In this document: one piece after another, positions 32,835 to 47,232 of the stretch | How positions within the stretch are numbered: the first letter of the stretch is position 1 | Layout of the letters: the number at the start of each line of letters is the position of its first letter | Origin: Oscillospiraceae bacterium | GTDB taxonomy: Bacteria > Bacillota > Clostridia > Oscillospirales > Ruminococcaceae | Direction: 5' to 3' | DNA: 64,000 nt | NCBI GenBank assembly: GCA_030539275.1 | Contig: JAUNSK010000017.1 | Coordinates: forward strand, 1 to 64,000 | The notes under the pieces: generated by a model | Database searches by the model: none | Seen by the model: only the letters and a program-made list of their open reading frames with translations | Told to the model about the DNA's origin: nothing | Translations under genes and position numbers: made by a program

Positions 32835-32869
32835 AAATATTTTCCCCCTCAAATACAGACTGATTGAGT

Positions 32870-33386: not shown

Positions 33387-33689
33387 CTACAGGCCTATAT
33401 GCTGTAATATTGCATCTGCCACATCACGGGCAGAAACATTATATGTTCCGCTGCGTATCTGGGCCTTGAGAGCATCGATTCTCTCCTGTGATGCACCTGT
33501 GTTTATCTGTGAAGCAATCTCTTTTACACCGCAGTCAAGCTTATTGAATGCAGCTGCTTCAGGGCTGATTGATACAGAATCATTTTTTCCGCCGTTTAAC
33601 GGTGATTTTACTGAACCCGGCTTTGCATTTTTATTATTTATCGCCTGTGTTCTCATATATCCGCTGCACGGATTAAAATCAATATTCAT
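33387..33689 (-). CDS. flgM: Anti-sigma-28 factor FlgM
   Basis: This 100-residue protein has a disordered N-terminal half and the FlgM core: Asp-Ser-Val-Ser-Ile-Ser-Pro-Glu-Ala, then Ile-Asp-Ala-Leu-Lys-Ala-Gln-Ile-Arg-Ser-Gly-Thr-Tyr-Asn-Val and Asp-Val-Ala-Asp-Ala-Ile. FlgM binds FliA and is exported through the completed secretion apparatus to release it. The ATG at 33689 has GGAG at 9 nt, so three extra in-frame upstream residues are excluded. Its presence beside fliA and the export genes implies the locus keeps secretion-coupled sigma-28 control. Confidence 0.9.
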   Translation of the reverse strand: MNIDFNPCSGYMRTQAINNKNAKPGSVKSPLNGGKNDSVSISPEAAAFNKLDCGVKEIASQINTGASQERIDALKAQIRSGTYNVSARDVADAILQHIGL

Positions 33690-33822
33690 AGAAAACAACT
33701 CCTTTCAGTTGCCTAAAATATAAACCTCCGAAAAACCATCCCATCACCATATTATATATCGAAACTTTATGATATTTTTCTATACTATAATAACGATTAT
33801 TTTTGTTAAATGTCCGGTACCA

Positions 33823-33851
33823 TTGAAAAGGAGGGAGAATTTTGCTATAAT
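33823..33851 (+). promoter_or_regulatory. Sigma-A promoter of parA-comFB
   Basis: TTGAAA (33823-33828), a 17 bp spacer and a perfect TATAAT (33846-33851) are preceded by TGC (extended -10). The GAGG site at 33874-33877 serves the ATG at 33885. The flgM gene diverges from the same region, where a TATAAT is also visible on the minus strand (33756-33751) but without a good -35. Confidence 0.8.
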
Positions 33852-33884
33852 TTATATATTATTAATGATTTGCGAGGTTTTATC

Positions 33885-34649
33885 ATGGCTTTAGTCATCT
33901 CTGTTGTTACACAAAAGGGCGGCGTCGGCAAAACAACAGCCGCCAATGCACTTTCATCAGTTATCAGAGCTTCAGGAAAAAAAATTCTTGCAGTTGATTT
34001 TGACCCTCAGGCCAATCTGTCTTATAGCTTCGGGGCAGATACAACTGATTCCCTCACAATATATAATGTACTCAGAGGGGACGCACCGGCAGGCGAATGT
34101 ATAATTTCAACAGCAGTCGGAGATATAATTGCTTGTGACATTCTGCTTAACTCTGCTGAACTTGAATTTGTCAGTGACAGCAGAGAATATCTTCTCAAGA
34201 ATGCTCTGAAGAGCATTATGAAAAATTATGATTACATAATAATCGACTGTCCTCCGGGACTTGGAATACTTACAGCATGTGCACTGTGCACATCTGATTA
34301 TGTTATTGTTCCGATGCTTCCTGATTCCTTCAGTCTGCAGGGTATCGTTCTTATCAACGATACTATAAACAGAGTCAGAAAGTCATGCAACCCTAACGTC
34401 CAGATTGCAGGAGTACTTATCAACCGCTTCAGTCCGTTTAGCCGTCATCACCGGGAAGCCAGAAAAACAGCCGATATGATCGCCGGGAAATGCGGCATAA
34501 GAGTATTTGATACCATTATCCGTTCATGTCCTGCACTGTCAGAAGCACATACACTTCAGACTGATATCACTGAGTACAGACGCTGCAGACGCGCAATGAA
34601 CGACTATATGCGGCTTTTTCATGAAATGCAGCAAAAACAAATTATATAA
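33885..34649 (+). CDS. ParA/Soj-family ATPase without ParB partner
   Basis: This 254-residue P-loop ATPase has the deviant Walker A Lys-Gly-Gly-Val-Gly-Lys-Thr-Thr (11-18), Asp-Phe-Asp-Pro-Gln-Ala-Asn, and Walker B Ile-Ile-Asp-Cys-Pro-Pro-Gly. The Asp-Pro-Gln-Ala-Asn block is typical of ParA/Soj rather than FlhG or MinD. No parB or centromere-like repeat is near. Upstream frame to 33810 is non-coding leader, since promoter and RBS lie inside it. It is co-transcribed with comFB and lies between flgM and the flagellar-type export operon. It may position the secretion machine, as FlhG does, or act in chromosome partitioning. Confidence 0.85.
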   Translation: MALVISVVTQKGGVGKTTAANALSSVIRASGKKILAVDFDPQANLSYSFGADTTDSLTIYNVLRGDAPAGECIISTAVGDIIACDILLNSAELEFVSDSREYLLKNALKSIMKNYDYIIIDCPPGLGILTACALCTSDYVIVPMLPDSFSLQGIVLINDTINRVRKSCNPNVQIAGVLINRFSPFSRHHREARKTADMIAGKCGIRVFDTIIRSCPALSEAHTLQTDITEYRRCRRAMNDYMRLFHEMQQKQII

Positions 34650-34663
34650 CAGGAGGCACAAAA

Positions 34664-35047
34664 ATGTCAGAAAAAAAGAAACTGTCCGATATAAACAAAA
34701 ATCTTATGTTCAGCAAGATCATGCCGTCTTATAAAGCGTCAGCTGAAGGCTCCTGCACCCAGGGGTCTGCAAATCCTGAATCTGAAAATCTCCAGTATAT
34801 AAATATAAATGAACTGATAATCATCTCTTCAGCTGAGCGTATCATGACTGCACTCAGATGTTGCCGGTGCAGCAGATGTATGCGTACTGTCATTCTTGAT
34901 GCACTCAACCGTATACCTGCAGATTACATATACACAACTCACACTGATGCACTCAGGGCAGCAGGGCAGCAGCCGACAAGCCTTATAACTGATACCATTG
35001 TCAACTGCGCCTTGTCACTCAAGTCAAAAGGAGTTCACGCAAATTAA
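34664..35047 (+). CDS. ComFB-family protein
   Basis: The 127-residue protein carries the ComFB signature: Cys-Cys-Arg-Cys-Ser-Arg-Cys (Cys66, 67, 69, 72) followed by Asp-Ala-Leu-Asn-Arg-Ile-Pro-Ala-Asp-Tyr. In Bacillus, comFB lies in the comF operon next to yvyF-flgM, so closeness to flgM has precedent. Recent work proposes ComFB proteins as cyclic dinucleotide receptors. If so, this would link the locus to cyclic-di-GMP; the window also encodes an EAL phosphodiesterase. The N-terminal 45 residues are low-complexity. It ends 11 bp from the convergent fliA stop. Confidence 0.8.
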   Translation: MSEKKKLSDINKNLMFSKIMPSYKASAEGSCTQGSANPESENLQYININELIIISSAERIMTALRCCRCSRCMRTVILDALNRIPADYIYTTHTDALRAAGQQPTSLITDTIVNCALSLKSKGVHAN

Positions 35048-35058
35048 TTATAAATGTC

Positions 35059-35835
35059 TTATACGTCAATATAGTCAACAAGACATTTTCTAAGCTTTGA
35101 TACAGCTCTGGCATTAATCTGTGAAACTCTCTGAATACTTACTTCTATAACCTTTGAAATATCACTGAGAGTAAGGTTTTCAAAGTAATACAGGGTAAGT
35201 ACAAGTCTTTCTCTTTCTTCAAGATTTTCTATGGCTGTCTTGAGCATCCTGCGCAGTTCATTTTTCATCAGCATGTTTTCAGGCATAGCACTGTCATTTG
35301 ATGACATCACCATAAGCTCTCCTGCATTTGATACATTCTGCAGCAGCTCCTCAAAGGAAAATGTCACAGCACTTGCTGATTCATAGCTGTACTGTCTGAG
35401 TTTTTCAACAGGAATCTCCATCTTTGCGGCAAGTTCTGCCTCTGTAGGCTCTCTTTTAAGTCTTGAACACAGCTCCGCTCTTGAATCTGATATTTCCTTT
35501 GCCATTGCACGGACTCTTCTTGGGATCCAGTCCTGCTTGCGGACAAAGTCAATAACACCACCCCTTATACGCATAAACGCATAAGACTCAAATTTTATAT
35601 TTCTCTCAGGGTCAAATTTTTCTATACAGTCAATAAGCACCAGTATCCCCTGGTTTACCATATCCTCAAGCTGAGCATACCCAGCAGTAACACCCCTCAG
35701 CTGAAATGCCACAGTTTTTGGTATATAACTGTACAGCATTATCAGTTTGTTTCTTATCCCCATGTCTTTTGTCGCCATATACTTCGAATGAAGATCATTG
35801 AACTCTTCTTCAGACAACGGTGTTTTGTCAGTCAT
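35059..35835 (-). CDS. fliA: Sigma-28 (FliA/WhiG-type) RNA polymerase sigma factor
   Basis: The protein is about 258 residues with sigma-70 regions 2 (Leu-Glu-Asp-Met-Val-Asn-Gln-Gly, Phe-Glu-Ser-Tyr-Ala-Phe-Met-Arg-Ile-Arg-Gly), 3 (Asp-Trp-Ile-Pro-Arg-Arg-Val-Arg) and 4 (Leu-Ser-Asp-Ile-Ser-Lys-Val-Ile-Glu-Val-Ser). The Asp-Trp-Ile-Pro-Arg block is characteristic of FliA. A GTG at 35844 is possible, but the ATG at 35835 follows AGAGGTGG at 5-6 nt. It is the last gene of the export operon. By eye I found no convincing sigma-28 promoter in the window. Confidence 0.93.
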   Translation of the reverse strand: MTDKTPLSEEEFNDLHSKYMATKDMGIRNKLIMLYSYIPKTVAFQLRGVTAGYAQLEDMVNQGILVLIDCIEKFDPERNIKFESYAFMRIRGGVIDFVRKQDWIPRRVRAMAKEISDSRAELCSRLKREPTEAELAAKMEIPVEKLRQYSYESASAVTFSFEELLQNVSNAGELMVMSSNDSAMPENMLMKNELRRMLKTAIENLEERERLVLTLYYFENLTLSDISKVIEVSIQRVSQINARAVSKLRKCLVDYIDV

Positions 35836-35850
35836 CTCAACCACCTCTCA

Positions 35851-37902
35851 CTAACTAATTGTAATATTTCCAAGTGACTTAACATGAACCTGAGAATCAA
35901 TTTCACTTAATGAAAGTACCACTGCATCCGGATAGTATCTTTCCAGAAGGCGTTTAAGCATAAGACGCACCTTCGGAGAAGTCAGAATGACTGCACTGCC
36001 GGTTTGTTCAGCGGCTTTTTTTATCTCATTTCCAGCAGATAAAATAAGACTGTGCAGATCGCTTCGGCTTAAATCTATGTAGGTACCTTCATTATTCTTA
36101 ACAACGCAGCTGAGTATTTTATTTTCAGTGTCAGGATCAAGTCCGATAACATCCATCATATTTCTTTTTGCATACTTGTGTGATATTACCCTCTTAAGTG
36201 AGGTCCTGACACGCTCTGTCATATCGTCAATATTTTTTGTCTGCTTTGCACAGTCGGAGAGTGTACTCAGTATCGTTTCCAGATCACGTACAGGAATATT
36301 TTCCTTAAGCAGACCGGACAATACCTTGTGAAGGTCGCCCACTGTCACCAGTGACGGTATCACATCATCGACAAGAGCTTCATTATTTTTTCTCAGGTTG
36401 TCGATCATTCTGTACACTTCAGTTCTGGTAAGTATCTCATATGCATGGTTACTGATAACCTCACATAGGTGCGTTATAATAAGAGAGCATGGGTCTACAA
36501 CAGTATAACCCTTCAGCTCAGCCTCACAACGTTTTTCTTCATCGATCCATTTTGCATCTGCACCAAAAACAGGATCCTTTACATAAGTACCCTGGATATT
36601 AATATCAGATAAATTATCAGAAAGAACGAGCAGTCGTCCGTCCGAAATTTCACCGCTCACGATCTCTTCGCCTTTTATACAGATACGGTACTGGTCAAAT
36701 CCTATCTCTTTTGAATCATTAAGCTTTACAGCTGGAATTATTATACCGAGTTCATGTGCATACTGCTTTCTGACTGCTGCTATCTGTTCAAGCATTTTCT
36801 GCGCATTCTCATCTTCAATCATTGAAATAAGGCCATAACCGAAATCTATATTCATATGTTCTATATCAAGAAGCCTGTAAAGATCAGCTGCGCTGTCGTC
36901 CGTATTCTGAACAGATGGCCGGGTTTCCTGAGTTTCGTCTGTATCATCAGCATTTTTTTTGTGCACAGATAATTTATAAATTCCTGCTGCTATCAGCAGT
37001 GACGACACGATAAGTATCTGTACCGGCGGAAATCCTGCAAAAAGAAGGATGAGCAATACTGAACCGGCTATAATAAATGAGATCGGCTGAGATGAAAACT
37101 GTACTGCAAGATCTGTTCCCAGATCCTCCTTTGCAGTTTTGCGTGTTATGATTATTCCGGCAGAAACACTTGTAAGAAGAGCCGGTATCTGTGAAACAAG
37201 ACCATCGCCAACAGTCGCTGTGCTGTATGTGCTTATTATCTGTGAAAAACTGCCGCTTCCTGATAATTTTCCGATGCATATTCCTCCTATAAGGTTTACA
37301 AAGGTAACTATCAGAGATATGACTGCATCACCCTTGACGAACTTGGAGGCACCGTCCATGGCCCCGAAGAATGCCGACTCACGCTGGATCTTTAAGCGCA
37401 GTGCCGCAGCTTCCTGTTCATCAATAGCCCCGTTGTTGAGATCTGAGTCAATGGCCATCTGTTTTCCTGGCAGCGCATCAAGAGTAAATCTTGCTGATAC
37501 TTCTGCAATACGTTCAGCACCTTTGGTGATAACCAGGAACTGAACCAGTACTATTATCAGAAATATTACAAGTCCGACTATAACATTGTCCTTTATAACA
37601 AGGCTTCCGAAAACCTTTATGACCTGTCCGGCATTGCCCTTATTCATAAGTATACTGCGCGTTGATGAAATATTAAGTCCCAGCCTGAATACCGTCATAA
37701 GCAGCAGCAGTGCAGGAAAAGCTGAAAACTCCAGCGGCTCCTTTATGTACATAGCCATAAGAAGTATTATCATTGACAGTCCGAGCTGTACTATAAACAG
37801 AAAATCGAGTAACACAGAGGGCACAGATATAATAAACAGCAGTACGATCATCACTACAAAAACAGCTGTACTTTTTCCCAGTATGTTGGTCAGTCTTTTC
37901 AA
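35851..37902 (-). CDS. flhA: Flagellar-type export gate protein FlhA
   Basis: This 683-residue protein has normal length: about eight membrane segments in residues 1-320, including the FHIPEP signature (Met-Thr-Val-Phe-Arg-Leu-Gly-Leu-Asn-Ile-Ser-Ser-Thr-Arg), then a full cytoplasmic ring-forming domain. FlhA forms the nonameric docking ring for chaperone-substrate complexes. The likely start is TTG at 37902, overlapping the flhB stop (TTGA). It looks intact, unlike FlhB and FliF. Confidence 0.95.
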   Translation of the reverse strand: MKRLTNILGKSTAVFVVMIVLLFIISVPSVLLDFLFIVQLGLSMIILLMAMYIKEPLEFSAFPALLLLMTVFRLGLNISSTRSILMNKGNAGQVIKVFGSLVIKDNVIVGLVIFLIIVLVQFLVITKGAERIAEVSARFTLDALPGKQMAIDSDLNNGAIDEQEAAALRLKIQRESAFFGAMDGASKFVKGDAVISLIVTFVNLIGGICIGKLSGSGSFSQIISTYSTATVGDGLVSQIPALLTSVSAGIIITRKTAKEDLGTDLAVQFSSQPISFIIAGSVLLILLFAGFPPVQILIVSSLLIAAGIYKLSVHKKNADDTDETQETRPSVQNTDDSAADLYRLLDIEHMNIDFGYGLISMIEDENAQKMLEQIAAVRKQYAHELGIIIPAVKLNDSKEIGFDQYRICIKGEEIVSGEISDGRLLVLSDNLSDINIQGTYVKDPVFGADAKWIDEEKRCEAELKGYTVVDPCSLIITHLCEVISNHAYEILTRTEVYRMIDNLRKNNEALVDDVIPSLVTVGDLHKVLSGLLKENIPVRDLETILSTLSDCAKQTKNIDDMTERVRTSLKRVISHKYAKRNMMDVIGLDPDTENKILSCVVKNNEGTYIDLSRSDLHSLILSAGNEIKKAAEQTGSAVILTSPKVRLMLKRLLERYYPDAVVLSLSEIDSQVHVKSLGNITIS

Positions 37903-38972
37903 ATCACTTCAAATCCTTTTTCTTTATTATCATAAACCTCAGCAAGCATCCCCGCAACTGCATAATAGTATTTCTGCGGTATTTTCTGACCGGGTTTCGT
38001 ACTCAAAAATATCGCGCGGGCAAGTTCAGGATAGTTGAATATTGCAATATTTTGTTTTCTGGCTCTGGCCCTGATTATGCGGGCAGATGAATCTTTTCCT
38101 GATGAGATCACAACAGGTGCCTGATGAACAGCTCTGTCATATCCCAGTGCAACTGCATATCCGCCGTCTGAACAGATCACAAGCTCAGTATCTGTTTCAT
38201 CTGATACATTAACGGATGAATCTGCATTATGGCGCGAAAGCATTGCATCTCTTACATACGGATCCGCCTGATCATCTTTGATTTCATCCTTTATCTCCTG
38301 CTTTGTCATTCTGATTTTTCTCATATGTCTTATGTACTCAGCCAGATAATCTGCAGCAGCAAGAATTGTCAGAGCTGCTAGCGTACGTGTTATTATTTCT
38401 GCCACAGCTGCAGCTATAAATGAAAAAGATTCAGACAAGCTCATATCAGCAAGCGTCTGAAGAACCGTAATTCTTTTATTAAGACACAGCAAAATGATCA
38501 GTAATACTGTAACTATCTTTAAAGCAGCTGCTGTAAGAGACCATAACCCGGATAATGAAAATACCCTTCCTATACTCAGACGCGGACTGATCCTATGTGT
38601 ATCAGGCACAACTGACTGCGGCCTTATACTGAATCTGGTCTGAAGAAATGTTGCCGCAGCTGCTGCCGCACCAACTGCGGCTCCTGCAGGAATTACAGCA
38701 AACAGAAATCTTGAAGCACAGTATGAATATGTCTGTCGTGTATCTTCAGCACTGAGTGATGTCCGGCTTCCTGCCTCTGTAAAAAAACAGGTTATCAGAG
38801 ATTCAAGCATATCGCGTATCATCGGATACACCGCTCTCAATACCAGAAAAAAAACTGTTAGTGTAAAAAGTGAGATCACTTCACGGCTTACTGGTATAAG
38901 TCCTTCCCTGCGCGCTTTGATTTTTCTTTTTCTGGTAGGCTTTTCAGTTTTCTGAGAAACATCTGAGTCCAG
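37899..38972 (-). CDS. flhB: Export gate protein FlhB lacking the NPTH self-cleavage motif
   Basis: The protein, about 357 residues, has the FlhB charged N-terminus (Lys-Thr-Glu-Lys-Pro-Thr), four membrane helices and the cytoplasmic domain. Where FlhB/SctU proteins have Asn-Pro-Thr-His-Tyr-Ala-Val-Ala, this one reads Ser-Asp-Gly-Gly-Tyr-Ala-Val-Ala (codons 38171-38160, residues 268-271), so the Asn-Pro bond cut during substrate switching is absent. Flanking residues through Ala-Pro-Val-Val and the C-terminal Gly-Gln-Lys-Ile-Pro are well kept. The start is unusual: an open frame reaches 39080, but family length and an AAGAGGTGG site favour CTG at 38972; TTG at 38996 is the alternative. Confidence 0.88.
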   Translation of the reverse strand: MDSDVSQKTEKPTRKRKIKARREGLIPVSREVISLFTLTVFFLVLRAVYPMIRDMLESLITCFFTEAGSRTSLSAEDTRQTYSYCASRFLFAVIPAGAAVGAAAAAATFLQTRFSIRPQSVVPDTHRISPRLSIGRVFSLSGLWSLTAAALKIVTVLLIILLCLNKRITVLQTLADMSLSESFSFIAAAVAEIITRTLAALTILAAADYLAEYIRHMRKIRMTKQEIKDEIKDDQADPYVRDAMLSRHNADSSVNVSDETDTELVICSDGGYAVALGYDRAVHQAPVVISSGKDSSARIIRARARKQNIAIFNYPELARAIFLSTKPGQKIPQKYYYAVAGMLAEVYDNKEKGFEVI

Positions 38973-38988
38973 TTTTACCACCTCTTGT

Positions 38989-39765
38989 TCATACAAGCGA
39001 GCATAGAGACCGCTGCATGGAATCAAACATAGAAATAATATAGTTCTCCAGAAATACAGTAACCGGTTTTGCCATTGCAAGCATTACTATCATAAAAACT
39101 ATTATTTTTATCTGCATATTCATAACAAACATATTGAACTCAGGAATAAGTCTCATAAGAATCCCCATACCTGTTTCAACTATAAGCGCTGCAGCTATAA
39201 AAGGAACTGCAAGTCTGACTGCAAGTGAAAAAACGCTGATAAATAGTTCTATTCCATACTGTGACACACTCTGAAGGCTCAGCCCGGACATTCCCGCACT
39301 GACAGTGTCATATGACGATATAAGAAGTCTTATAAACACAAGATGACTGTTTGTTATAAATATATAGACAAGAAAGAGAATATGCAGCAGTTTTCCCGTT
39401 ACTGACTGAGCTGTCCCTGAAAGAGGATCAAATACTCTGCCCATGAGAAGACCTGACTGCTCATCAATAATATCACCTGCAAATGAAAGCATATAGAAGT
39501 AAATATTAAATACATATGCCAGCACAAATCCAACAGCCAGCTCACTGGTTATACATAACAGCAGCTCAGGAATATTGACAATATCACATGTTATTCCTGT
39601 AAATGGCATAAGAAGCAGTGAAATGCCTGCCGCTGCAGCTGTTTTTACAGCGAAGCTTACCTGGCTTCGGGAAATAACAGGATTAAAAAATACTATAGCT
39701 GAGATTCTTGCCAGCACTAAAATGTATGAATAAAAATTATCTGCAGTAAACTGTAACTGTGCCAA
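38989..39765 (-). CDS. fliR: Export gate protein FliR
   Basis: This 258-residue membrane protein of the FliP-FliQ-FliR gate has about six hydrophobic segments. The N-terminal Tyr-Ile-Leu-Val-Leu-Ala-Arg-Ile-Ser-Ala and Phe-Asn-Pro-Val, and the C-terminal Leu-Arg-Leu-like Met-Arg-Leu-Ile-Pro-Glu-Phe-Asn-Met-Phe, are FliR marks. The open frame extends to 39840 inside fliQ. A TTG at 39765, 8 nt after AGGAG, gives the normal length. It starts 11 bp after fliQ ends. Confidence 0.92.
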   Translation of the reverse strand: MAQLQFTADNFYSYILVLARISAIVFFNPVISRSQVSFAVKTAAAAGISLLLMPFTGITCDIVNIPELLLCITSELAVGFVLAYVFNIYFYMLSFAGDIIDEQSGLLMGRVFDPLSGTAQSVTGKLLHILFLVYIFITNSHLVFIRLLISSYDTVSAGMSGLSLQSVSQYGIELFISVFSLAVRLAVPFIAAALIVETGMGILMRLIPEFNMFVMNMQIKIIVFMIVMLAMAKPVTVFLENYIISMFDSMQRSLCSLV

Positions 39766-39776
39766 ACTATCAGCTC

Positions 39777-40040
39777 CTATAAAGACGCAATTGCAGTGAA
39801 AATTCCACTGAAAAATTCTACACATACACTTACCATCCATGTTCCGAGCGTCAGAAATACCACAGCCACAGCAATTATCTTAGGAACAAATGTCAGTGAC
39901 TGTTCATGGATCTGTGTTACTGACTGAAACACTGATACTATAAGCCCTGCAGCAATACTGACAAGCAGTACCGGTGCTGAAATTTTAAATGCTGTGTAAA
40001 CAGCGGAAGTAAAGATACTGAGTATCTGTGACTTGCTCAT
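39777..40040 (-). CDS. fliQ: Export gate protein FliQ
   Basis: This 87-residue protein has two membrane helices. FliQ marks are Ala-Pro-Val-Leu-Leu-Val-Ser-Ile-Ala-Ala-Gly-Leu, Val-Ser-Val-Phe-Gln-Ser-Val-Thr-Gln-Ile-His-Glu-Gln-Ser-Leu, and Phe-Val-Pro-Lys. Four FliQ subunits wrap the FliP-FliR helical core. A GGGGG-type RBS precedes the ATG. It looks intact. Confidence 0.95.
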   Translation of the reverse strand: MSKSQILSIFTSAVYTAFKISAPVLLVSIAAGLIVSVFQSVTQIHEQSLTFVPKIIAVAVVFLTLGTWMVSVCVEFFSGIFTAIASL

Positions 40041-40059
40041 AATTATTACGCCCCCCGTT

Positions 40060-40839
40060 TCAGTTAAAGCTGACTATCAGCGACTTTATAAGAAGATTCC
40101 ATCCGTCTGCAAGAATAAAGAGCATGAGTTTGAACGGCATAGAGATCATCGCAGGCGGAAGCATAACCATTCCCATTGACATAAGCGTACTTGACACCAC
40201 AAGATCTATAATTATAAACGGTATGTATAAAAGAAAGCCTATTATAAATGCTCTCTTGAGTTCACTTGTTACAAATGCCGGAGTAACTACCCATATGCTC
40301 AGCTGTGTCAGTTTTTCCCTGGAATCATACTGCGACTTGTCTATGATCCCTCTGTCATCAGCAACAGACATGAACATGTCAAGGTCATCCTTGTATACCT
40401 GTTTGAGCATGAAAACCTTGAGCGGCTCAGATCCTTTGTCAACAGCCTCCTGAAATGTTATGTCTCCGGCCTTGTACGGCTTGTACGCCTGGGTATTTAT
40501 CTGGGTGAATACAGGAAGCATAATAAATACGGAAATAAATGCTGAAAGACCTATTATGACCTGATTCGGCGGAGAACCTGATGTACCTATCGCATTTCTC
40601 AGAAATGAAAAGGCAATTACTATCCTTGTAAAGCATGTCATCATGAGCAGCATAGTCGGGATAAGAACTACAACGCACAGAAGAAACAAAAGATCTGTTA
40701 TCCCGCTGTCCTGACCGCCCGTTTGTGAATCGACCTTGATATTTACGGAAGATTCCGCCGATACAGTCGATGACATAATAAATATCAGAAACAACACAGT
40801 AATAAGTGAAAAAACAAAGCAGACAATACTGCGTTTCAT
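40060..40839 (-). CDS. fliP: Export gate protein FliP
   Basis: The 259-residue protein has a cleavable-type signal sequence (1-28, ending Thr-Val-Ser-Ala), a short extracytoplasmic loop and four membrane helices. FliP signature blocks Thr-Cys-Phe-Thr-Arg-Ile-Val-Ile-Ala, Ser-Pro-Pro-Asn-Gln-Val and Val-Val-Ser-Ser-Thr-Leu-Met-Ser-Met-Gly-Met-Val-Met-Leu-Pro-Pro are complete. An in-frame GTG at 40893 lies within AGAGGTGAT and inside fliO, so I use the ATG at 40839, although its own RBS is weak. FliP forms the core channel of the gate. Confidence 0.94.
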   Translation of the reverse strand: MKRSIVCFVFSLITVLFLIFIMSSTVSAESSVNIKVDSQTGGQDSGITDLLFLLCVVVLIPTMLLMMTCFTRIVIAFSFLRNAIGTSGSPPNQVIIGLSAFISVFIMLPVFTQINTQAYKPYKAGDITFQEAVDKGSEPLKVFMLKQVYKDDLDMFMSVADDRGIIDKSQYDSREKLTQLSIWVVTPAFVTSELKRAFIIGFLLYIPFIIIDLVVSSTLMSMGMVMLPPAMISMPFKLMLFILADGWNLLIKSLIVSFN

Positions 40840-40858
40840 TTTATGATCAAAGATCCGT

Positions 40859-41263
40859 TTATTTAGAGTCTGAGCTGTTTTTATACTTATCACCTCTGTT
40901 TTTTATTGTTCCTATTCTTTCTTTAGCGGCTTCTTTCAGAATTTCATAGAAATCACCGCCGCTGCTTTTGTCACTGCTGCTTTCAAGATTCAGCTCATCG
41001 CTGTCAAGATCACATATATACTCTAAATGCTCCTTGCCTGAGCCAACCAGCAGATACTTCTGACCTGCCCTGATTATCATAAGGTATTTGTCAGGACCTG
41101 CCGGCATACTCTCAATTATCCTTAGATTTTTTCCGTTTGCCGACGGGCGCCCGTAACGTTTTCCTATCAGCTTTGTTGAAATATATGCAAGATAAAGAAT
41201 TATAATAAAAACCAGAACAGCAGCAAGAACGCTGAAAACACTTCCTATTGCGGATTCTCCCAA
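40859..41263 (-). CDS. fliO: FliO/FliZ-type gate assembly protein
   Basis: This protein of about 134 residues has one N-terminal membrane helix (about 8-28), then a short beta domain (Lys-Asn-Leu-Arg-Ile-Ile-Glu-Ser, Lys-Tyr-Leu-Met-Ile-Ile-Arg-Ala-Gly) and a charged tail. FliO is a transient chaperone for FliP pentamer assembly. It probably starts at TTG 41263, since GGAG lies 8 nt upstream and the GTG at 41272 has no RBS. It directly precedes fliP. Confidence 0.82.
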   Translation of the reverse strand: MGESAIGSVFSVLAAVLVFIIILYLAYISTKLIGKRYGRPSANGKNLRIIESMPAGPDKYLMIIRAGQKYLLVGSGKEHLEYICDLDSDELNLESSSDKSSGGDFYEILKEAAKERIGTIKNRGDKYKNSSDSK

Positions 41264-41289
41264 AAAAATCACTCCAGAATGAATATTTG

Positions 41290-41634
41290 TTAAACAAGCT
41301 CTGTAATTTTAATACTTACGCCTCTCTGATCAGCTGCTATGTCTCCATGAGCTATGATCTTTGAATTGATAACCAGATCTGATTTTGCGCCGACAGGCTT
41401 GTCAAGCTTGACTACGCATCCTGCCCTGAGTCTGAGCAAATCGCTCAGAAGAATACTTGTACGTCCGATCTCTCCTCGTACTTCTGCTGTTACATCTGAA
41501 AGTGCACTCAGACTGATTTTTTTGTTATCTGTTGCTGCAGGCTGATCCCCGGCAAAGTCAGGAAACCTGACCGCAGCATATCTGGAATTGTCATCTGCCT
41601 CTGGAATTTCGTTATGAGTTGATTCATTATTCAT
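41290..41634 (-). CDS. fliN: FliN/SpoA-domain protein (C-ring or sorting platform)
   Basis: The 114-residue protein has a polar N-terminus and a single SpoA domain at about 40-114: Ser-Asp-Val-Thr-Ala-Glu-Val-Arg-Gly-Glu-Ile-Gly-Arg-Thr, then Leu-Arg-Leu-Arg-Ala-Gly-Cys-Val-Val-Lys-Leu-Asp-Lys-Pro. In flagella FliN works with FliM, and in injectisomes SctQ carries two SpoA domains. No FliM or SctQ is in the locus, so this would be a FliN-only platform for the FliH/FliI complex. The gene stands exactly where fliK through fliM/fliY normally sit. Confidence 0.85.
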   Translation of the reverse strand: MNNESTHNEIPEADDNSRYAAVRFPDFAGDQPAATDNKKISLSALSDVTAEVRGEIGRTSILLSDLLRLRAGCVVKLDKPVGAKSDLVINSKIIAHGDIAADQRGVSIKITELV

Positions 41635-41693
41635 TAAAATTTCATCCGGTTCCTTTCAGTCTGAATCTTATTTCTGAATAAACATCAGTCTGA

Positions 41694-42182
41694 CTATATA
41701 TCTGATGTTTCTTCCGCAGCCGGTTCATTTATGTCCGGATTTTTGCCGGAAGATATATGATGCGATATAAATTCTTCTATATAATTCTGATTTTCTTTGT
41801 CAAGTCTGTGAAGATACTCAGACTTCTGCTTTTCCTCAAGCTTTGCAAGTTCAGTACATTCATATGATATTTCTATCACTGTCTTCTGCTGTACTTCTAT
41901 AGACTTTTTTACATTTTCAATTTTTGCAGCGATATCAGTCAGTTCATTTCTGAGTGCACTCTTTTTGATCTCAAGCAGCTGCATGTCAACAACCCTTACT
42001 CCGCTCATCATTCTGGAATTAAGGTCAAAGCAGATCTTCTCTGACTGCTGCATGACAGACTGCTGGGTGAGTATCAGAGCATTCAGCTTTACATGAAGCC
42101 TCATCAGAGTGTTCTTTTCTTTTTTAATCTGCTGATTTTTGTATTCTTTCATTTTTTCCAGTGAAAATTTAAAATCATTCAT
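41694..42182 (-). CDS. fliJ: FliJ-like coiled-coil export protein
   Basis: This 162-residue, almost wholly helical protein begins Phe-Lys-Phe-Ser-Leu-Glu-Lys-Met-Lys-Glu-Tyr-Lys, the usual FliJ opening (Leu-x-Lys-Val-x-x-x-Lys). It has two long coiled-coil helices and an acidic tail. FliJ is the stalk that links the FliI hexamer to FlhA. It starts 12 bp after fliI. Sequence conservation in the family is low, so the call rests on position and coiled-coil form as well as on the N-terminus. Confidence 0.82.
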   Translation of the reverse strand: MNDFKFSLEKMKEYKNQQIKKEKNTLMRLHVKLNALILTQQSVMQQSEKICFDLNSRMMSGVRVVDMQLLEIKKSALRNELTDIAAKIENVKKSIEVQQKTVIEISYECTELAKLEEKQKSEYLHRLDKENQNYIEEFISHHISSGKNPDINEPAAEETSDI

Positions 42183-42194
42183 TTAAAACCCAGC

Positions 42195-43520
42195 CTACTC
42201 AAAAATTTTTCGCATGATACTTATTGTTTCTTCCATTGAAAAGCGTTCGTTAATATCCTGTTTTAAAAATTCATTTATACTTTCAAGCCTGCTTATGGCA
42301 TAATCAAGTTCAGGATTGGTTCCGGTCTTATAAGCACCTATTGAAATAAGATCCTGATTCTCTTCATATACTGACATGATCTTTCTGATCTTCCCGGCAG
42401 TTTCTTTCTGATCGTCTGAAATTATTTCTGACATCAGTCTGCTGATGCTTGAAAGAATATCGATTGCCGGATAGTGATTTCTCATGGCCATGTTCCTTGA
42501 CATCATTATATGACCATCTATTATTCCTCTTACGGTATCAGAGATCGGTTCGTTGCTGTCATCGCCCTCGACAAGTACTGTAAAAATACCTGTTATCGAA
42601 CCTGTTTCAAAGTTGCCGCATCTCTCAAGAAGCTTTGGCAGTGACGCATAAATCGAAGGGGTATATCCTCTTGCGATAGGAGGCTCACCGGCACTCAGAC
42701 CTATTTCACGCTCTGCCATGCAGAAACGTGTAAGCGAATCCATCATCAGCAGAACGTCTTTTCCCTGATCCTTGAAGTATTCGGCTATTGCTGTTGCAGT
42801 CTGAGCACATTTTGATCTCATCATCGCGGGCTGGTCAGATGTTGCTACTACAAGGACACTGCGGCTTATACCTTCATCTCCGAGATCTCTGTTGATGAAT
42901 TCCATCAGTTCTCTGCCGCGCTCGCCAACCATTGCGATAACATTAACATCTGCATTGATGTTTCTTGCTATCATACCCATGAGTATGCTCTTTCCTACTC
43001 CGCTTCCGGCAAATATACCCATTCTCTGTCCTTTGCCTACAGTCAGCATTCCGTCTATCGCCTTTATTCCGAATTCAACCGGTTCTCTGATCGGAGGACG
43101 TTTCATAGGATTTGACGGCCTGCCGTTTATCGAGTAAAATGTCTGACCCTCGATCTCTCCCTTGCCGTCTATAGGATTACCGACAGCATCTATTGTCCTC
43201 CCTATAAGCTGAGGACTCATTTTTATTTTTAGTTTTTCACCTGTATTGCTGACAAAGCTTCCATATCCGATACCTGTTATATCACCATATGGCATCAGCA
43301 GTACTTTTCCATTTCTGAAGCCGACTACTTCAGACATAATGCTTTTTTTATCTGTGCCGGCTATAGATATATTGCAAACATCACCTATATTACATGAGAT
43401 TCCGGATGCTTCAACAGTGAGCCCGACAATCTGTTCAATTTTCCCCAGTGTAGTATAAAAGTTGTTAAGCCTCATACTTCTTCTGAGGTTTTTCTGTGAC
43501 AGCCCGTGTATCTGACTCAT
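42195..43520 (-). CDS. fliI: Flagellar-type export ATPase FliI
   Basis: The protein has about 441 residues. Walker A is Gly-Ser-Gly-Val-Gly-Lys-Ser, Walker B Val-Leu-Leu-Met-Met-Asp-Ser, with the Thr-Arg-Phe block and Gly-Glu-Pro-Pro-Ile-Ala-Arg-Gly-Tyr-Thr-Pro-Ser typical of FliI/SctN. It appears active. Several Met codons compete as start: 43520 has GAGG at 9 nt; 43475 would give a shorter N-terminus overlapping the fliH stop. Either way it overlaps fliH, implying coupled translation. Confidence 0.95.
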   Translation of the reverse strand: MSQIHGLSQKNLRRSMRLNNFYTTLGKIEQIVGLTVEASGISCNIGDVCNISIAGTDKKSIMSEVVGFRNGKVLLMPYGDITGIGYGSFVSNTGEKLKIKMSPQLIGRTIDAVGNPIDGKGEIEGQTFYSINGRPSNPMKRPPIREPVEFGIKAIDGMLTVGKGQRMGIFAGSGVGKSILMGMIARNINADVNVIAMVGERGRELMEFINRDLGDEGISRSVLVVATSDQPAMMRSKCAQTATAIAEYFKDQGKDVLLMMDSLTRFCMAEREIGLSAGEPPIARGYTPSIYASLPKLLERCGNFETGSITGIFTVLVEGDDSNEPISDTVRGIIDGHIMMSRNMAMRNHYPAIDILSSISRLMSEIISDDQKETAGKIRKIMSVYEENQDLISIGAYKTGTNPELDYAISRLESINEFLKQDINERFSMEETISIMRKIFE

Positions 43521-44226
43521 ACTCATCATCCTCATCGGTAAATTCGTTAAAATACTTTCGAATATTCTGCAGCTGTGTCAATACAGAAGCGACTATTACG
43601 CCCTCTGCTGTATGAATAACACATGTACCCTTATCTGCATCGCGTCTGAGTTCCACCTCTACACGCTGATCCTCTTTTGCATCCGAAAGCTCCTTTTCAA
43701 GCTGTGCAGCTGACTCCCTGAGTTTATCTGATACCTCAACCTTTATCCACTGGGCATCGCGTATTGATCTTATCGCCCTCTGGACCAGTGAAAATAACAT
43801 TTTATCATCGTCATCAAGCTTTTTGCAGACGAGTTTTTCTGCCACATCCACTGCCAGTCCTCTTAGTTCCTTCGCATATATGTCAAAATACTCTTCCTGC
43901 TCTTTTTTTATCTGGGCAAGTGTCTTTTCTATACTGTTAAGCCCTCTGCAAAGTATATCATTTCTGGCAGCAGTTCCTTCCTGATAACCAGTGTTATATG
44001 CTTTTTTATAGATCTCCTCGGTTTTTTTCTCTGCCTGAGAAATCATAAGCCCGCACTGTCTTGATGCATCTTCAAGAAGCTGCCCGGCATCAGGACTCTG
44101 TATATATGTATCTGTCTGACATGACATCTGTGCTGTTTTAGCCGAATCCGGATGCTGTGTGTAATCCGGAATTATGACAGGCTGGTCTGACTTTGATATT
44201 TCCTGTTTTTTTATTATCCGGCCCAC
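43465..44226 (-). CDS. fliH: FliH-like negative regulator of the export ATPase
   Basis: The 253-residue protein has a polar N-terminal part, a long central helix containing Lys-Lys-Ala-Tyr-Asn-Thr-Gly-Tyr-Gln-Glu-Gly, and a C-terminal FliH/V-ATPase-E-like domain (Val-Ala-Glu-Lys-Leu-Val-Cys-Lys-Lys, Leu-Val-Gln-Arg-Ala-Ile). FliH dimers tether FliI to FliN. The start is GTG at 44226 with AGGA 9 nt upstream. It follows fliF after only 22 bp, so there is no room for the fliG gene that normally separates them. Confidence 0.88.
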   Translation of the reverse strand: MGRIIKKQEISKSDQPVIIPDYTQHPDSAKTAQMSCQTDTYIQSPDAGQLLEDASRQCGLMISQAEKKTEEIYKKAYNTGYQEGTAARNDILCRGLNSIEKTLAQIKKEQEEYFDIYAKELRGLAVDVAEKLVCKKLDDDDKMLFSLVQRAIRSIRDAQWIKVEVSDKLRESAAQLEKELSDAKEDQRVEVELRRDADKGTCVIHTAEGVIVASVLTQLQNIRKYFNEFTDEDDEYESDTRAVTEKPQKKYEA

Positions 44227-44248
44227 TTAGATACATCCTTTCCTGACG

Positions 44249-45295
44249 TTAAGATTTTTTATCATCCTTTATCATTTTTCTGATGATATCAGCAGCTGCC
44301 TTCGGATCTTCTTTTATTAATTTGCTGATATCTTCTTTTTTTATTTTTTCTTTAGAAACGCAGCGTGTTTTGCCGGAAAGCATATCTGCATATTCGTTGT
44401 TTTCTCTTTCAAGCCTGGATATTCTCAGGTTTGCCCTTATGCTGTTGATAACCGCAGCAAGCGTAATAAGAAACAGAACAGCGCATACCCATAACATTGC
44501 AGTTTCCCTTGAAGTAAACGGAATGTCCTGTGTATCATTTTCCGGCTGTGTCTGAGCCGGCTGTTCATCAGACGGTAAAGTTTCCTGTACTTTGTCCTGT
44601 GCTGCTGATACAGGAACTGACTGTCCTATTTCAATTCCGGTAGCTGCATTTATTACTGTTACATCATCGGGCTCCATCTGCTGGGCACTGAATGCTACAA
44701 GTTTTTTCACAGCATCCGCCTGTTTAACATCAAAAGCATCCGGATCCTTAAGCGTCAGCATAACACTGGCTGTTGCTTTGTCCGGATTATCATCCCACAC
44801 GTAATCGGTCTCCTGAGGCACGCTTATTGTTACAACAGCACTTCTTATGTTATCTATTCTTTTAATGGTTGTCTGGAGTCTGTCCTGAAGCTCAAATCTG
44901 AGTGCCTGTTTTTTCTCAAAATCGCTCATTGTCATACTGAGATTATCAAAAAAAGTACCGTATGAAGGAGTTGACTGCGGATAGCCCATTTCAGCAAGCT
45001 CATATACTATCTCGTCCCATTGATCACTTCGTACCTCGATCTCACCATCAGAGCTTATCCTGGCATCAGCATTCATATTTTTCAGCTGAACAAATACATC
45101 TGTAGCCTCGCTTTTTGTCATGCCCGGAAATAATTCTATCCAGGATGCAGACTGTCTGTTAAGGAAAAACGTAATGCATGCTGCGCCCATTGCTATTGCA
45201 ATAACACTCAGTGCAAACAGCGTTTTCTGCTTTGATGACATTTTATGATATGTACTGTTGAGCTTTGAAATTATATTATTTTCTGATTCTTTCAT
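44249..45295 (-). CDS. fliF: Shortened FliF (MS-ring protein without RBM3/collar)
   Basis: FliF is usually 520-570 residues; this one has 348. TM1 (26-45), RBM1 (about 52-113) and RBM2 (about 125-225) of the YscJ/FliF family are well conserved, with Leu-Phe-Pro-Gly-Met, Asp-Phe-Glu-Lys-Lys-Gln-Ala-Leu-Arg-Phe-Glu-Leu-Gln and Ala-Ser-Val. A Gln/Pro/Glu linker of about 40 residues then leads to TM2 (about 265-284). The RBM3 and beta-collar region is absent. The C-terminal tail still resembles the FliG-binding end (Ile-Lys-Glu-Asp-Pro-Lys-Ala-Ala-Ala-Asp-Ile-Ile-Arg). The frame is continuous, so this is not a frameshift product. Confidence 0.85.
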   Translation of the reverse strand: MKESENNIISKLNSTYHKMSSKQKTLFALSVIAIAMGAACITFFLNRQSASWIELFPGMTKSEATDVFVQLKNMNADARISSDGEIEVRSDQWDEIVYELAEMGYPQSTPSYGTFFDNLSMTMSDFEKKQALRFELQDRLQTTIKRIDNIRSAVVTISVPQETDYVWDDNPDKATASVMLTLKDPDAFDVKQADAVKKLVAFSAQQMEPDDVTVINAATGIEIGQSVPVSAAQDKVQETLPSDEQPAQTQPENDTQDIPFTSRETAMLWVCAVLFLITLAAVINSIRANLRISRLERENNEYADMLSGKTRCVSKEKIKKEDISKLIKEDPKAAADIIRKMIKDDKKS

Positions 45296-45315
45296 TTTTA
45301 ACTCATTTCCGATTA

Positions 45316-45609
45316 TTAAATCTGCATTTCAGTTATGTTTTTATATGCCTCAACGGCACGGCTGATTATCTGGGATTTGATACCCAGCTCAAGTTCCTTT
45401 ATCTGAACAGAGTCAGAAGTATCGATCGGAACAGTAATTTGTGATATATCCTTAACGGCACTGCTCTGTACTGTCTGTGTCACACTATCAAGAATATCAC
45501 TGAAGCTGATCTTATCGCCGCTGCCTTCTGATACTCCTGAAATATTTGACTTTGACAGGGAATTTATCTTTGAAATACCGGCCGGAGAAACTGAAAATGA
45601 AAAATCCAT
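45316..45609 (-). CDS. fliE: FliE, rod/MS-ring adaptor
   Basis: This 97-residue protein has the FliE C-terminal pattern Phe-Ser-Asp-Ile-Leu, then Lys-Ser-Gln-Ile-Ile-Ser-Arg-Ala-Val-Glu-Ala-Tyr-Lys-Asn-Ile-Thr-Glu-Met-Gln-Ile. It is normally the first protein exported, joining gate and rod. The frame extends to 45696, but a GGCGGTG site and family length place the start at 45609, after the promoter. It is the first gene of the export operon. The usual partners flgB and flgC are not upstream. Confidence 0.85.
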   Translation of the reverse strand: MDFSFSVSPAGISKINSLSKSNISGVSEGSGDKISFSDILDSVTQTVQSSAVKDISQITVPIDTSDSVQIKELELGIKSQIISRAVEAYKNITEMQI

Positions 45610-45667
45610 AAAATTACACCGCCATGTCATATTAACAAATTTATAATATGGAAAACTATATATTTTC

Positions 45668-45696
45668 ATTATACTATAAATAACTTTAAATTTCAA
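45668..45696 (-). promoter_or_regulatory. Sigma-A promoter of the export operon
   Basis: Minus-strand TTGAAA (45696-45691), a 17 bp spacer and a perfect TATAAT (45673-45668). The leader to fliE is about 50 nt. The operon is thus probably vegetative, not dependent on sigma-28. Confidence 0.8.
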
Positions 45697-45812: not shown

Positions 45813-47120
45813 TCAATATACCTTCCACAAATGAGCACTGTATGGTGCCAGTTCACTTCCTCCGCCGAAATCGTGTTCTGTACCATCAATAAGATCTGTT
45901 GCTCTTTGGGCACCTGCATCAAAGTGTGCTGTATAAGTCTGACCGTCAGCATTTACAGCTGCAATGACTCTTTCACCGTCAGCCTCTCTCTCAAAAATAC
46001 ACTGTCTGTTTGTAAGATGAAGTATTTTAAATCCTCCGTAGCATAGTGCCCTGCTGTCTTTGTGTGCCTGTGCAAGACTCCCGATCCACTTTGTCAGATC
46101 GTTTTGCTGCGGTTCGTCAAAGCATACCCTGAGAGCAGGATCACCGTCAGACTTCATAGCTTTTGTTCCCCATTCACTTCCGTAGTATACGCAAGGTATT
46201 CCCGGCATTGCAAACATAAGAGCATAAATAAGCTTTAGATGCCCGGGGTCAGTAAGCTGACTTGCTATCCTTGAAACGTCATGATTATCAACGAAAGACA
46301 GCAGATGCATTCCGCGGTATCTACACCACTGTTCAGGTCCGAACTGATTTTTGAGTGAATGGCAGATCTCGAACATATTCATACAGTTAAAGCTCGAGTA
46401 AAGTCCTTTATAACATTCATAATTTGTTGCGCTGTCAAGCATTTCATTATTTACAAACATGCTGTAATCGCCGTGAAGAAGTTCTCCGAGAAGGAAGAAA
46501 TCCTTTTTCTGAGAATCACAGAATCTGCGCAGACGTTTTATAAACTCCTTGTCAAGACAATATGCTACGTCAAGACGGATTCCGTCAATATCAAATTCCT
46601 CAATCCACTTTCCGACACACTCAAGGATATGATTTACTACCTCTTCATTTCTGAGATTGAGCTTAACAAGATCATAGCAGCCTTCCCAGCCCTCATACCA
46701 TAAGCCGTCATTATAGCATGAGTTGCCTGCAAAGTTTATATTGAACCAGTTTATATATCTTGAGTTTTCACGTTTTTCAAGAACGTCTCTGAACGCCCAG
46801 AACCCTCTTCCCACGTGATTGAATACTCCGTCAAGTACAACTCTGATATCATTTTCATGAAGCTTCTGACATACATTCTGAAAGTCTTTGTTTGATCCGA
46901 GTCTTGCATCAATTTTAGTGTAGTCTCTTGTATTGTATCCGTGAGTATCAGATTCAAAAACAGGTGAAAAATATACAGCATTGCATCCTGTCTGTCTGAT
47001 ATGTGGTATCCATGAGATGACCTTAGTAATATTATTTACAACCTTACCGTCATTCTCATAGGATGCTCCGCAGAATCCAAGCGGATATATCTGGTAAAAT
47101 ACACTTTCGTAAGCCCACAT
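45813..47120 (-). CDS. GH13 alpha-amylase-family glycosidase, intracellular
   Basis: The 435-residue TIM-barrel enzyme has no signal peptide. Catalytic residues of GH13 are all visible: nucleophile Asp184 in Gly-Ile-Arg-Leu-Asp-Val-Ala, acid/base Glu213 in Leu-Leu-Gly-Glu-Leu-Leu-His, and the transition-state Asp in Phe-Val-Asp-Asn-His-Asp. It also has Asp-Gly-Val-Phe-Asn-His and a small C-terminal beta domain. It should act on imported maltodextrins. The start at 47120 (Met-Trp-Ala-Tyr-Glu-Ser) is preferred, because GGAGGA lies between it and the ATG at 47135. Confidence 0.92.
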   Translation of the reverse strand: MWAYESVFYQIYPLGFCGASYENDGKVVNNITKVISWIPHIRQTGCNAVYFSPVFESDTHGYNTRDYTKIDARLGSNKDFQNVCQKLHENDIRVVLDGVFNHVGRGFWAFRDVLEKRENSRYINWFNINFAGNSCYNDGLWYEGWEGCYDLVKLNLRNEEVVNHILECVGKWIEEFDIDGIRLDVAYCLDKEFIKRLRRFCDSQKKDFFLLGELLHGDYSMFVNNEMLDSATNYECYKGLYSSFNCMNMFEICHSLKNQFGPEQWCRYRGMHLLSFVDNHDVSRIASQLTDPGHLKLIYALMFAMPGIPCVYYGSEWGTKAMKSDGDPALRVCFDEPQQNDLTKWIGSLAQAHKDSRALCYGGFKILHLTNRQCIFEREADGERVIAAVNADGQTYTAHFDAGAQRATDLIDGTEHDFGGGSELAPYSAHLWKVY

Positions 47121-47232
47121 AAGCAAATCCTCCATAGCTAAGATATTTACAAAAATAAGTATTGCATATTGTATATTATACTATTTTTATATACAAAAAT
47201 CAATAACATATTCGTCAGTATTTCTTCATACA

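Follow-up and report, generated by a model that had tools for sequence, protein, structure and literature searches.

The window, a 64,000-nucleotide stretch of contig JAUNSK010000017.1 from an Oscillospiraceae bacterium (assembly GCA_030539275.1), carries a compact locus in which 14 named genes of the flagellar type III export system, among them a complete export gate (FlhA, FlhB, FliP, FliQ and FliR), are all present as open frames within positions 33387–45696. This locus is probably a selected remnant of the flagellar system of the genus, and would specify a type III export machine that neither builds nor turns a flagellum. Its sequences are not those of an injectisome and its gene content is no longer that of a flagellum, and we regard it as a variant of the flagellar export apparatus. 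An earlier note, made from the letters of this DNA, had proposed a reduced or repurposed export system. The reduction stood, with the locus cut down in place; repurposing is something that we infer from signs of purifying selection and from a coherent pattern of domain losses.

Gene content of the locus and of the genome

Genes were identified by Pfam matches, and their assignment as type III or flagellar was made with NCBIfam models as well. Pfam recovered every component that the earlier note had listed for the locus, namely the gate, FliO, the ATPase complex of FliH, FliI and FliJ, FliE, a short FliF, a single FliN, sigma-28 and FlgM, with FliJ and FliE scoring below the model cut-offs. No fliG, fliM, fliK, flgB–E, mot, che or flagellin gene was found among the annotated frames within the locus, as the note had also said, and FliE was the sole axial protein detected. 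For each protein run against NCBIfam the best type III match was a flagellar model and never an injectisome model: FlhA reached 739.8 bits with the flagellar model versus 576.6 with SctV, and FliI 638.8 versus 561.0 with SctN. The FliI score (FliI_clade2) exceeded its cut-off of 629.8, and FlhA, FlhB, FliF, FliE and FliN scored below the curated cut-offs of their flagellar models.

The genome to which the window belongs (G000, a draft of 3,680,885 bases in 49 contigs, 96% complete with 3.6% estimated contamination) was searched alongside ten other genomes of the same genus, hereafter the congeners. It contains exactly one FlhA, a protein present in nine of the ten congeners. The rod model Flg_bb_rod (PF00460) had no match anywhere in G000 and was positive in nine congeners; the congener with neither FlhA nor a rod match is G200, which is 81% complete. 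Genome-wide, G000 likewise gave no match to FliG_C (PF01706), found in all ten congeners at 131 bits or more each, and none to Flagellin_N (PF00669), which has a match in all ten and scores at least 125 bits in seven. Because Flagellin_N also matches FlgL, the sole match in G198, G202 and G204 (33–56 bits) is possibly FlgL. The zero counts for Flg_bb_rod and Flagellin_N in this whole-genome profile search are in line with the reduced export system that the note proposed. The FliG_C and flagellin negatives weigh more than the rod negative, because PF00460, being short, failed to match at least one genome, G087, in which rod- and hook-like frames can be read by eye. A second complete flagellar set elsewhere in G000 was considered and rejected, given the single FlhA and the zero matches to the rod, FliG_C and Flagellin_N models. 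Among the congeners, G202 has its flhA split in two (G202:C58:11113–13126; 725 and 102 bits), which may be a real break or a sequencing error.

Trimmed proteins and ancestral sites

The short fliF gene (44249–45295, minus strand; YscJ_FliF 123.2 bits) encodes 348 amino acids and has no match to PF08345, a domain that is present in the FliF of congener G197. We take the YscJ_FliF part to be RBM1–2 and PF08345 to be RBM3, or the collar. The protein retains the first membrane helix, the YscJ_FliF part, the linker, the second helix and the C-terminal tail, and is short by about 190 residues that include the PF08345 region. In the alignment its tail, KEDPKAAADIIRKMIK, resembles the AKKNPEIAAALIRSMMK of the congeners; this tail is presumably the part that binds FliG. 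Folded as a single sequence, FliF gave a mean pLDDT of 58, which is low confidence, with a secondary structure that fits. In domain content it matches the single ring of the SctJ type, which has no RBM3 or collar.

The gate protein FlhB (37899–39080, minus strand; Bac_export_2 249.7 bits) has a longest frame of 393 amino acids, versus 357–366 in five congeners, and reads SDGG in place of the self-cleavage motif NPTH that all five aligned congeners carry, so that both proteins suspected of being altered, FliF and FlhB, proved to be so. We surveyed the motif in 143 rows of at least 330 amino acids (134 distinct sequences) taken from FlhB loci. NPTH stands in 139 rows and NPEH or NPVH in three, and only the row from G000 is without the Asn and the Pro; the pair is retained in the 142 other rows, or 133 of the 134 distinct sequences. 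The residues A, P, A and L of the early-substrate pocket, at positions named in the available text of PMC13344023, are kept. In Salmonella, FlgM is a late export substrate, and the available portions of PMC7911332 and PMC13344023 describe FlhB self-cleavage between Asn269 and Pro270 as needed for the switch to late substrates, including FlgM and flagellin, and cleavage-deficient FlhB as poor at secreting late substrates, FlgM among them.

One claim of the note did not survive the wider search, which was that the switch genes are absent. Searching with a whole congener FliG uncovered a relative of 173 amino acids on a second contig, C8 (L278:10515–11036, minus strand), that matches FliG_M at 72.4 bits and FliG_C, the torque-making domain, at only 21.4 bits, below the cut-off of 23.3. 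The first part of this mini-FliG aligns with the start of the N-domain, its EHPQ motif (presumably FliM-binding) is kept, and the protein stops before the C-terminal domain. Contig C8 also holds fliM (303 amino acids) and fliY (318 amino acids), after pyruvate formate-lyase and radical-SAM genes. Proteins with FliMN_C number three in G000, as in seven of the ten congeners, with two in G200 and one each in G203 and G204. Because mini-FliG, FliM, FliY and FliN are all in the genome, the C-ring proteins are retained. In the alignment FliM begins past a peptide for which four congeners have LSQHQIDE or FSQNTI(D/N) and E. coli has LSQAEIDA (the row of G201, 146 amino acids in a wrong frame, was uninformative), and the frame immediately 5′ of its start contains no such peptide, which we assume to be the one that binds CheY-P. 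Judged from these sequences, the losses in FliF, FliG and FliM follow domain borders and match between partner proteins.

Around mini-FliG and fliM/fliY (L278:4190–7216 and 11133–12167) we noted by eye a cellulase-like protein and two secreted-looking dockerin-like proteins; a Dockerin_1 match near mini-FliG reached 18.7 bits, below the cut-off. Such neighbours possibly point to a cellulosome-type fibre degrader, which fits a fibre-degrading gut bacterium and proves no genus.

The locus was cut down in place, because it lies at the flagellar site of the congeners with matching flanks, and gene order indicates that it derives by reduction from flagellar loci that the congeners still hold. Synteny across relatives, named in the note as a check, gave this result directly: the flanks are shared, and congeners carry the missing genes between or beside them. 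The leuS gene (47753–50164, minus strand) adjoins the flagellar operon in G096, G181, G197 and G199, and an alpha-amylase family gene (45813–47135, minus strand) lies between leuS and the locus, an arrangement shared with G199. Only 59 bases separate fliJ from fliN, versus an interval in G197 that holds fliK, flgD, flgE, motA, motB and others, with motA and motB between flgE and fliN; from sigD to fliE the intergenic gaps range from −92 to +59 bases, which agrees with the closed-up intervals described earlier.

A second site tells the same story. In G199 the order is an HD-domain gene, fliS, fliD, fliW, a flgL-like gene for a Flagellin_N protein, flgK, flgN, flgM, parA and comFB, with interspersed frames that have no flagellar match. 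The equivalent in the window is the HD gene (31434–32852, minus strand), a small HTH gene, flgM, parA and comFB, and genes for the filament, the hook cap and their chaperones are missing from this site. The two flagellar clusters are about 2 Mb apart on one contig in G197, and their remnants are side by side in the window. The third site is that of fliG, whose neighbours in five congeners are DUF4026 and, where the sequence extends far enough, mtn, nampt, nic and pduL, and which in G203 is followed by cheA, cheW, cheR, cheB and cheW. On C8 the truncated fliG has the same pduL/nic/nampt/mtn/DUF4026 neighbours, with a dockerin-like protein added, and no che genes lie 3′ of it. Reduction affects three ancestral sites, spread over two contigs. 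An origin of the locus in another genus, by contamination or transfer, is unlikely, as FlhA groups beside the genus (support 84) and the flanks match those of the congeners.

LeuS itself is 87%, 85% and 81% identical to that of three congeners and 61–62% to that of six others, and G200 has no full-length match; the pattern would fit a replacement of leuS in some members of the genus. It is also 83% and 82% identical to LeuS in genomes from two other genera, which makes leuS alone a weak marker.

The genes themselves form a minus-strand run from 45696 down to 35059. It begins with fliE (45316–45696; longest frame 126 amino acids; FliE 20.0 bits, cut-off 22.4), the product of which has a C-terminal end like those of G096 and G203, and passes through fliF to fliH (43465–44226; FliH 33.6 bits), the export ATPase gene fliI (42195–43535; ATP-synt_ab 292.5 and T3SS_ATPase_C 90.9 bits; mean identity 78% to the congeners) and, placed after fliI, fliJ (41694–42182; FliJ 22.4 bits, cut-off 28.4; mean identity 35%). 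Because their Pfam scores fall below the cut-offs, the FliJ and FliE calls lean on gene order too. The run continues with fliN (41290–41634; 114 amino acids; FliMN_C 50.6 bits), fliO (40859–41272; FliO 49.8 bits), fliP (40060–40893; FliP 252.1 bits), fliQ (39777–40040; Bac_export_3 89.7 bits), fliR (38989–39840; Bac_export_1 163.6 bits), flhB and flhA (35851–37902; 683 amino acids; FHIPEP 759.5 bits), and ends with sigD, the sigma-28 gene (35059–35844; 261 amino acids), recognized by Pfam sigma-70 regions and by NCBIfam FliA_WhiG at 211.7 bits (cut-off 189.6). Beyond sigD, on the opposite strand, are genes for a ComFB-like protein (34664–35047; ComFB 32 bits) and a ParA-like ATPase (33810–34649; AAA_31 172.8 bits), the latter also a neighbour of flgM in G199, and then, on the minus strand again, flgM for the anti-sigma-28 factor (33387–33698; 103 amino acids; FlgM 51 bits). 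The ComFB-like protein has 127 amino acids, versus frames of about 280 codons in G197 and G199 (282 in G199), and the stretch N-terminal to the ComFB domain is shorter here.

Divergence, selection and regulation

We asked how well the remaining proteins keep conserved columns, defined for FlhA as those that are the same in at least 95% of 147 homologues. FlhA retains 93 of 100, FliP 35 of 35, FliQ 8 of 9, FliR 6 of 7 and FlhB 22 of 34; the 65% of FlhB is far below its lowest other row (88%). In a selection test that covered 13 genes (all except fliE) against three or four congeners, amino-acid identity was 0.51 between G000 and the congeners versus 0.72 among the congeners, with FliI, FliP and FliH nearest to the congeners' own level. 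For four neighbouring control genes (leuS plus three others that were found in G096 and G181 only) the two values were 0.702 and 0.701, and because these are nearly equal the speed-up is not regional. Second codon positions of the 13 genes were 0.746 identical versus 0.38 for 4-fold sites, an excess showing that amino-acid changes are still being removed. For the 3,673 codons, a simple random-substitution count with 0.1 substitutions per site predicts about 35 stops, and one with 0.6 predicts 142; none is present in these frames, which were picked because they are open. By these comparisons, most of the export genes are fast-evolving yet under purifying selection. In an FlhA tree made by a quick method without injectisome rows, the G000 row joins nine congener rows with a support of 84 on a branch of 1.94, versus 0.008–0.18 for theirs; relatives of this FlhA include Bacillota such as Oribacterium.

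To place the reduction in a wider context, we surveyed 197 genomes of the family, of which 68 have FlhA and 64 a rod match. FlhA without a rod match occurs in six: G000, G037 (a 17-bit FlhA, below the cut-off), G068, G160, G087 and G174. The last four are genomes of 0.7–0.9 Mb from the same family that carry flagellar operons (L040 and L214 in G087, and L036, L041 and L042). We considered G087 as an instance of the same reduction and rejected it, as its long FliF, a FliG-like frame and rod- and hook-like frames read by eye describe an apparently ordinary flagellum; G068, G160 and G174 have a long FliF too, and PF00460 seems to miss rod genes in these small genomes. In a class sample of 391 genomes, YscJ_FliF has a match in 148. 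Once two matches below the cut-off are set aside (one the sole match of G257, the other the second of G596), the FliF frames listed are at least 478 amino acids long except in G000 (359) and in G376 (306, at a contig end). No other short FliF that is above the cut-off and not clipped by a contig end was found among these 391 genomes.

FlgM has a mean identity of 48% to that of five congeners, and both its N terminus (MNIDFN) and its C-terminal region are congener-like in the alignment. The element CGATATATA 5′ of flgM, which is common to three of five congeners, does not match the pattern TAAA-N13..15-CCGATA. That pattern has 52 sites in G000 versus 32 for the reversed control; 43 of them lie inside frames of at least 90 amino acids, and five of the nine others lie 58–163 bases 5′ of a frame.

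Mechanism, alternatives and precedents

If the locus encodes a working export machine, FliF and mini-FliG, FliM, FliY and FliN would form a static base and sorting platform, to which FliH, FliI and FliJ would deliver, and the gate of FlhA, FlhB and FliPQR would translocate early-type substrates (FliE and other putative proteins) across the cytoplasmic membrane. Such a gate would be incapable of the rod/hook-to-filament switch; with no hook and no filament the switch would be unneeded, and the NPTH motif is gone. Sigma-28 and FlgM would still time part of the system. The odds are about even that, beyond this, a probably single-membrane bacterium of an otherwise flagellated genus has converted its flagellum into a non-rotary type III secretion machine, whose layout has converged on that of an injectisome base, static sorting platform included. 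What would have been lost on the way is the rod, hook and filament, the FliG torque domain, the CheY input, the FliF collar and the FlhB substrate switch.

Several observations weigh against a selected export machine. The MotA/MotB negative covers the locus, with no genome-wide search made for either, and FliK, FlgD and chaperone genes were not met at the locus sites, again with no genome-wide search. Relaxed constraint may account for part of the fast evolution; at 93%, FlhA keeps no more of its conserved columns than the lowest-scoring of the other rows; and the placement of FlhA comes from a quick tree, with a support of 84 and a tool warning on the long branch of G000. No other genome with the same compact set was found in the family (197) or class (391) samples, which leaves no comparison within the lineage. 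The simple pattern revealed no enriched sigma-28 regulon in G000. Finally, FlgM is kept alongside an FlhB that should not switch, a pairing at odds with the role of FlgM as a late substrate in Salmonella: either the preference of the gate would have changed, or FlgM would act inside the cell only.

A relic, in which the flagellar system is on its way out and the export genes are of no use and merely not yet lost, would agree with flagellar genes that are less alike to those of the congeners than the congeners' are among themselves and with a species that has lost flagellar genes, and a survey of another phylum (PMC13063649, in its available text) reads flagellar gene divergence in host-associated bacteria as relaxed constraint. 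We nevertheless think it unlikely, given 14 open frames in the window and three on C8, the purifying signal where dozens of stops are expected without selection, the gate residues that are kept, and losses that respect domain boundaries and correspond between partners. The presence of flgM and sigD, regulatory flagellar genes kept in the window, together with the congener-like ends of FlgM and the shared upstream element, could instead suggest a regulatory device that sets sigma-28 activity by exporting or holding back FlgM, with a regulon unrelated to motility. This is decidedly unlikely, as an FlhB without NPTH should, judging by Salmonella, handle late substrates such as FlgM poorly, and the simple pattern gave no enriched regulon.

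Nanotube and similar roles are tied to gate proteins, and the gate complex here might serve nanotubes or a hat-shaped structure and not secretion as such. A hat-shaped membrane structure is related to flagellar type III genes in the available text of PMC9380563, which mentions nanotube reports, and the likeness would lie in a non-flagellar use of flagellar type III proteins. However, more than the gate is kept in G000, namely the ATPase complex, FliE, FliF, C-ring proteins, sigma-28 and FlgM, which makes such a platform improbable. It is more doubtful still that the bacterium is flagellated after all, its genes for rod, hook, filament and stator having escaped detection because they lie in the 4% of the genome that is missing or have diverged too far. 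PF00460 did miss the rod-like frames of G087, and the MotA/B search covered the locus only, but FliG_C (at least 131 bits in all ten congeners) and flagellin (at least 125 bits in seven of ten) are not found in G000, at three places the sites of the rod, hook, hook-cap, filament-cap and che genes have closed or stand empty, FliF is without PF08345 and FliG without its torque domain. An assembly or binning artefact that joined pieces of a flagellar operon, conceivable in a 49-contig draft with 3.6% estimated contamination, has next to no credibility in view of the three reduced ancestral sites on two contigs, trimming within single genes, flanks that match those of the congeners and an FlhA that groups with the genus at a support of 84.

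Returning to the system as a selected export machine, its parts are homologous one by one to the flagellar export apparatus of the congeners and occupy the same genomic sites. It differs from that apparatus in a FliF without PF08345 (RBM3), a FliM without the CheY peptide and an FlhB without NPTH, and in that no rod, hook or filament gene or FliG torque domain was found. Its closest precedent is Lysobacter enzymogenes OH11, a flagellum-less member of a diderm genus. In the available text of PMC7277350, OH11 has flagellar export genes without flagella, which secrete a test flagellin and some of which affect twitching. Both have flagellar export genes, and in G000 too no flagellin gene was found; the OH11 genes are not in an operon according to that text, unlike the compact operon, trimmed C-ring proteins and sigma-28/FlgM pair here.

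The likeness to non-flagellar type III secretion systems (NF-T3SS), including the injectisome, is one of outline and would be convergent: a single ring without RBM3, as in SctJ, a gate, an ATPase complex, and SctQ-like FliM/FliY/FliN with no torque domain. In contrast, the sequences are flagellar, and no secretin, SctD or needle gene is among the annotated neighbours; needle subunit, translocon and secretin were absent from the neighbours run against Pfam, with no genome-wide search made. The survey in PMC3459982, as far as its text was available, found NF-T3SS only in diderms, and describes in Myxococcales an export core without an outer-membrane channel or needle subunit. The latter is a separate NF-T3SS lineage, whereas the system here would be derived inside a flagellated genus. 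Among the titles found by literature search, none describes a flagellum-less type III export system in a monoderm, which does not prove that none exists.

If the system does secrete, the transition from flagellum to secretion system, a change so far inferred from very old branches, would have been repeated here recently and independently, with its intermediate stage still readable. Because the cut-down version shares its genomic sites with flagellated congeners, each loss can be listed. The genus would thereby provide a natural test that sets the parts for export alone (FliE, RBM1–2 of FliF, mini-FliG, FliM/FliY/FliN and FliHIJ) against the parts for assembly, switching and rotation (RBM3, NPTH and FliK, FliG_C and the CheY peptide). 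Were a probably monoderm lineage to have type III export and no flagellum, annotation could also easily miss this secretion route, because FlhA, FlhB, FliF, FliE and FliN fall below the NCBIfam cut-offs.

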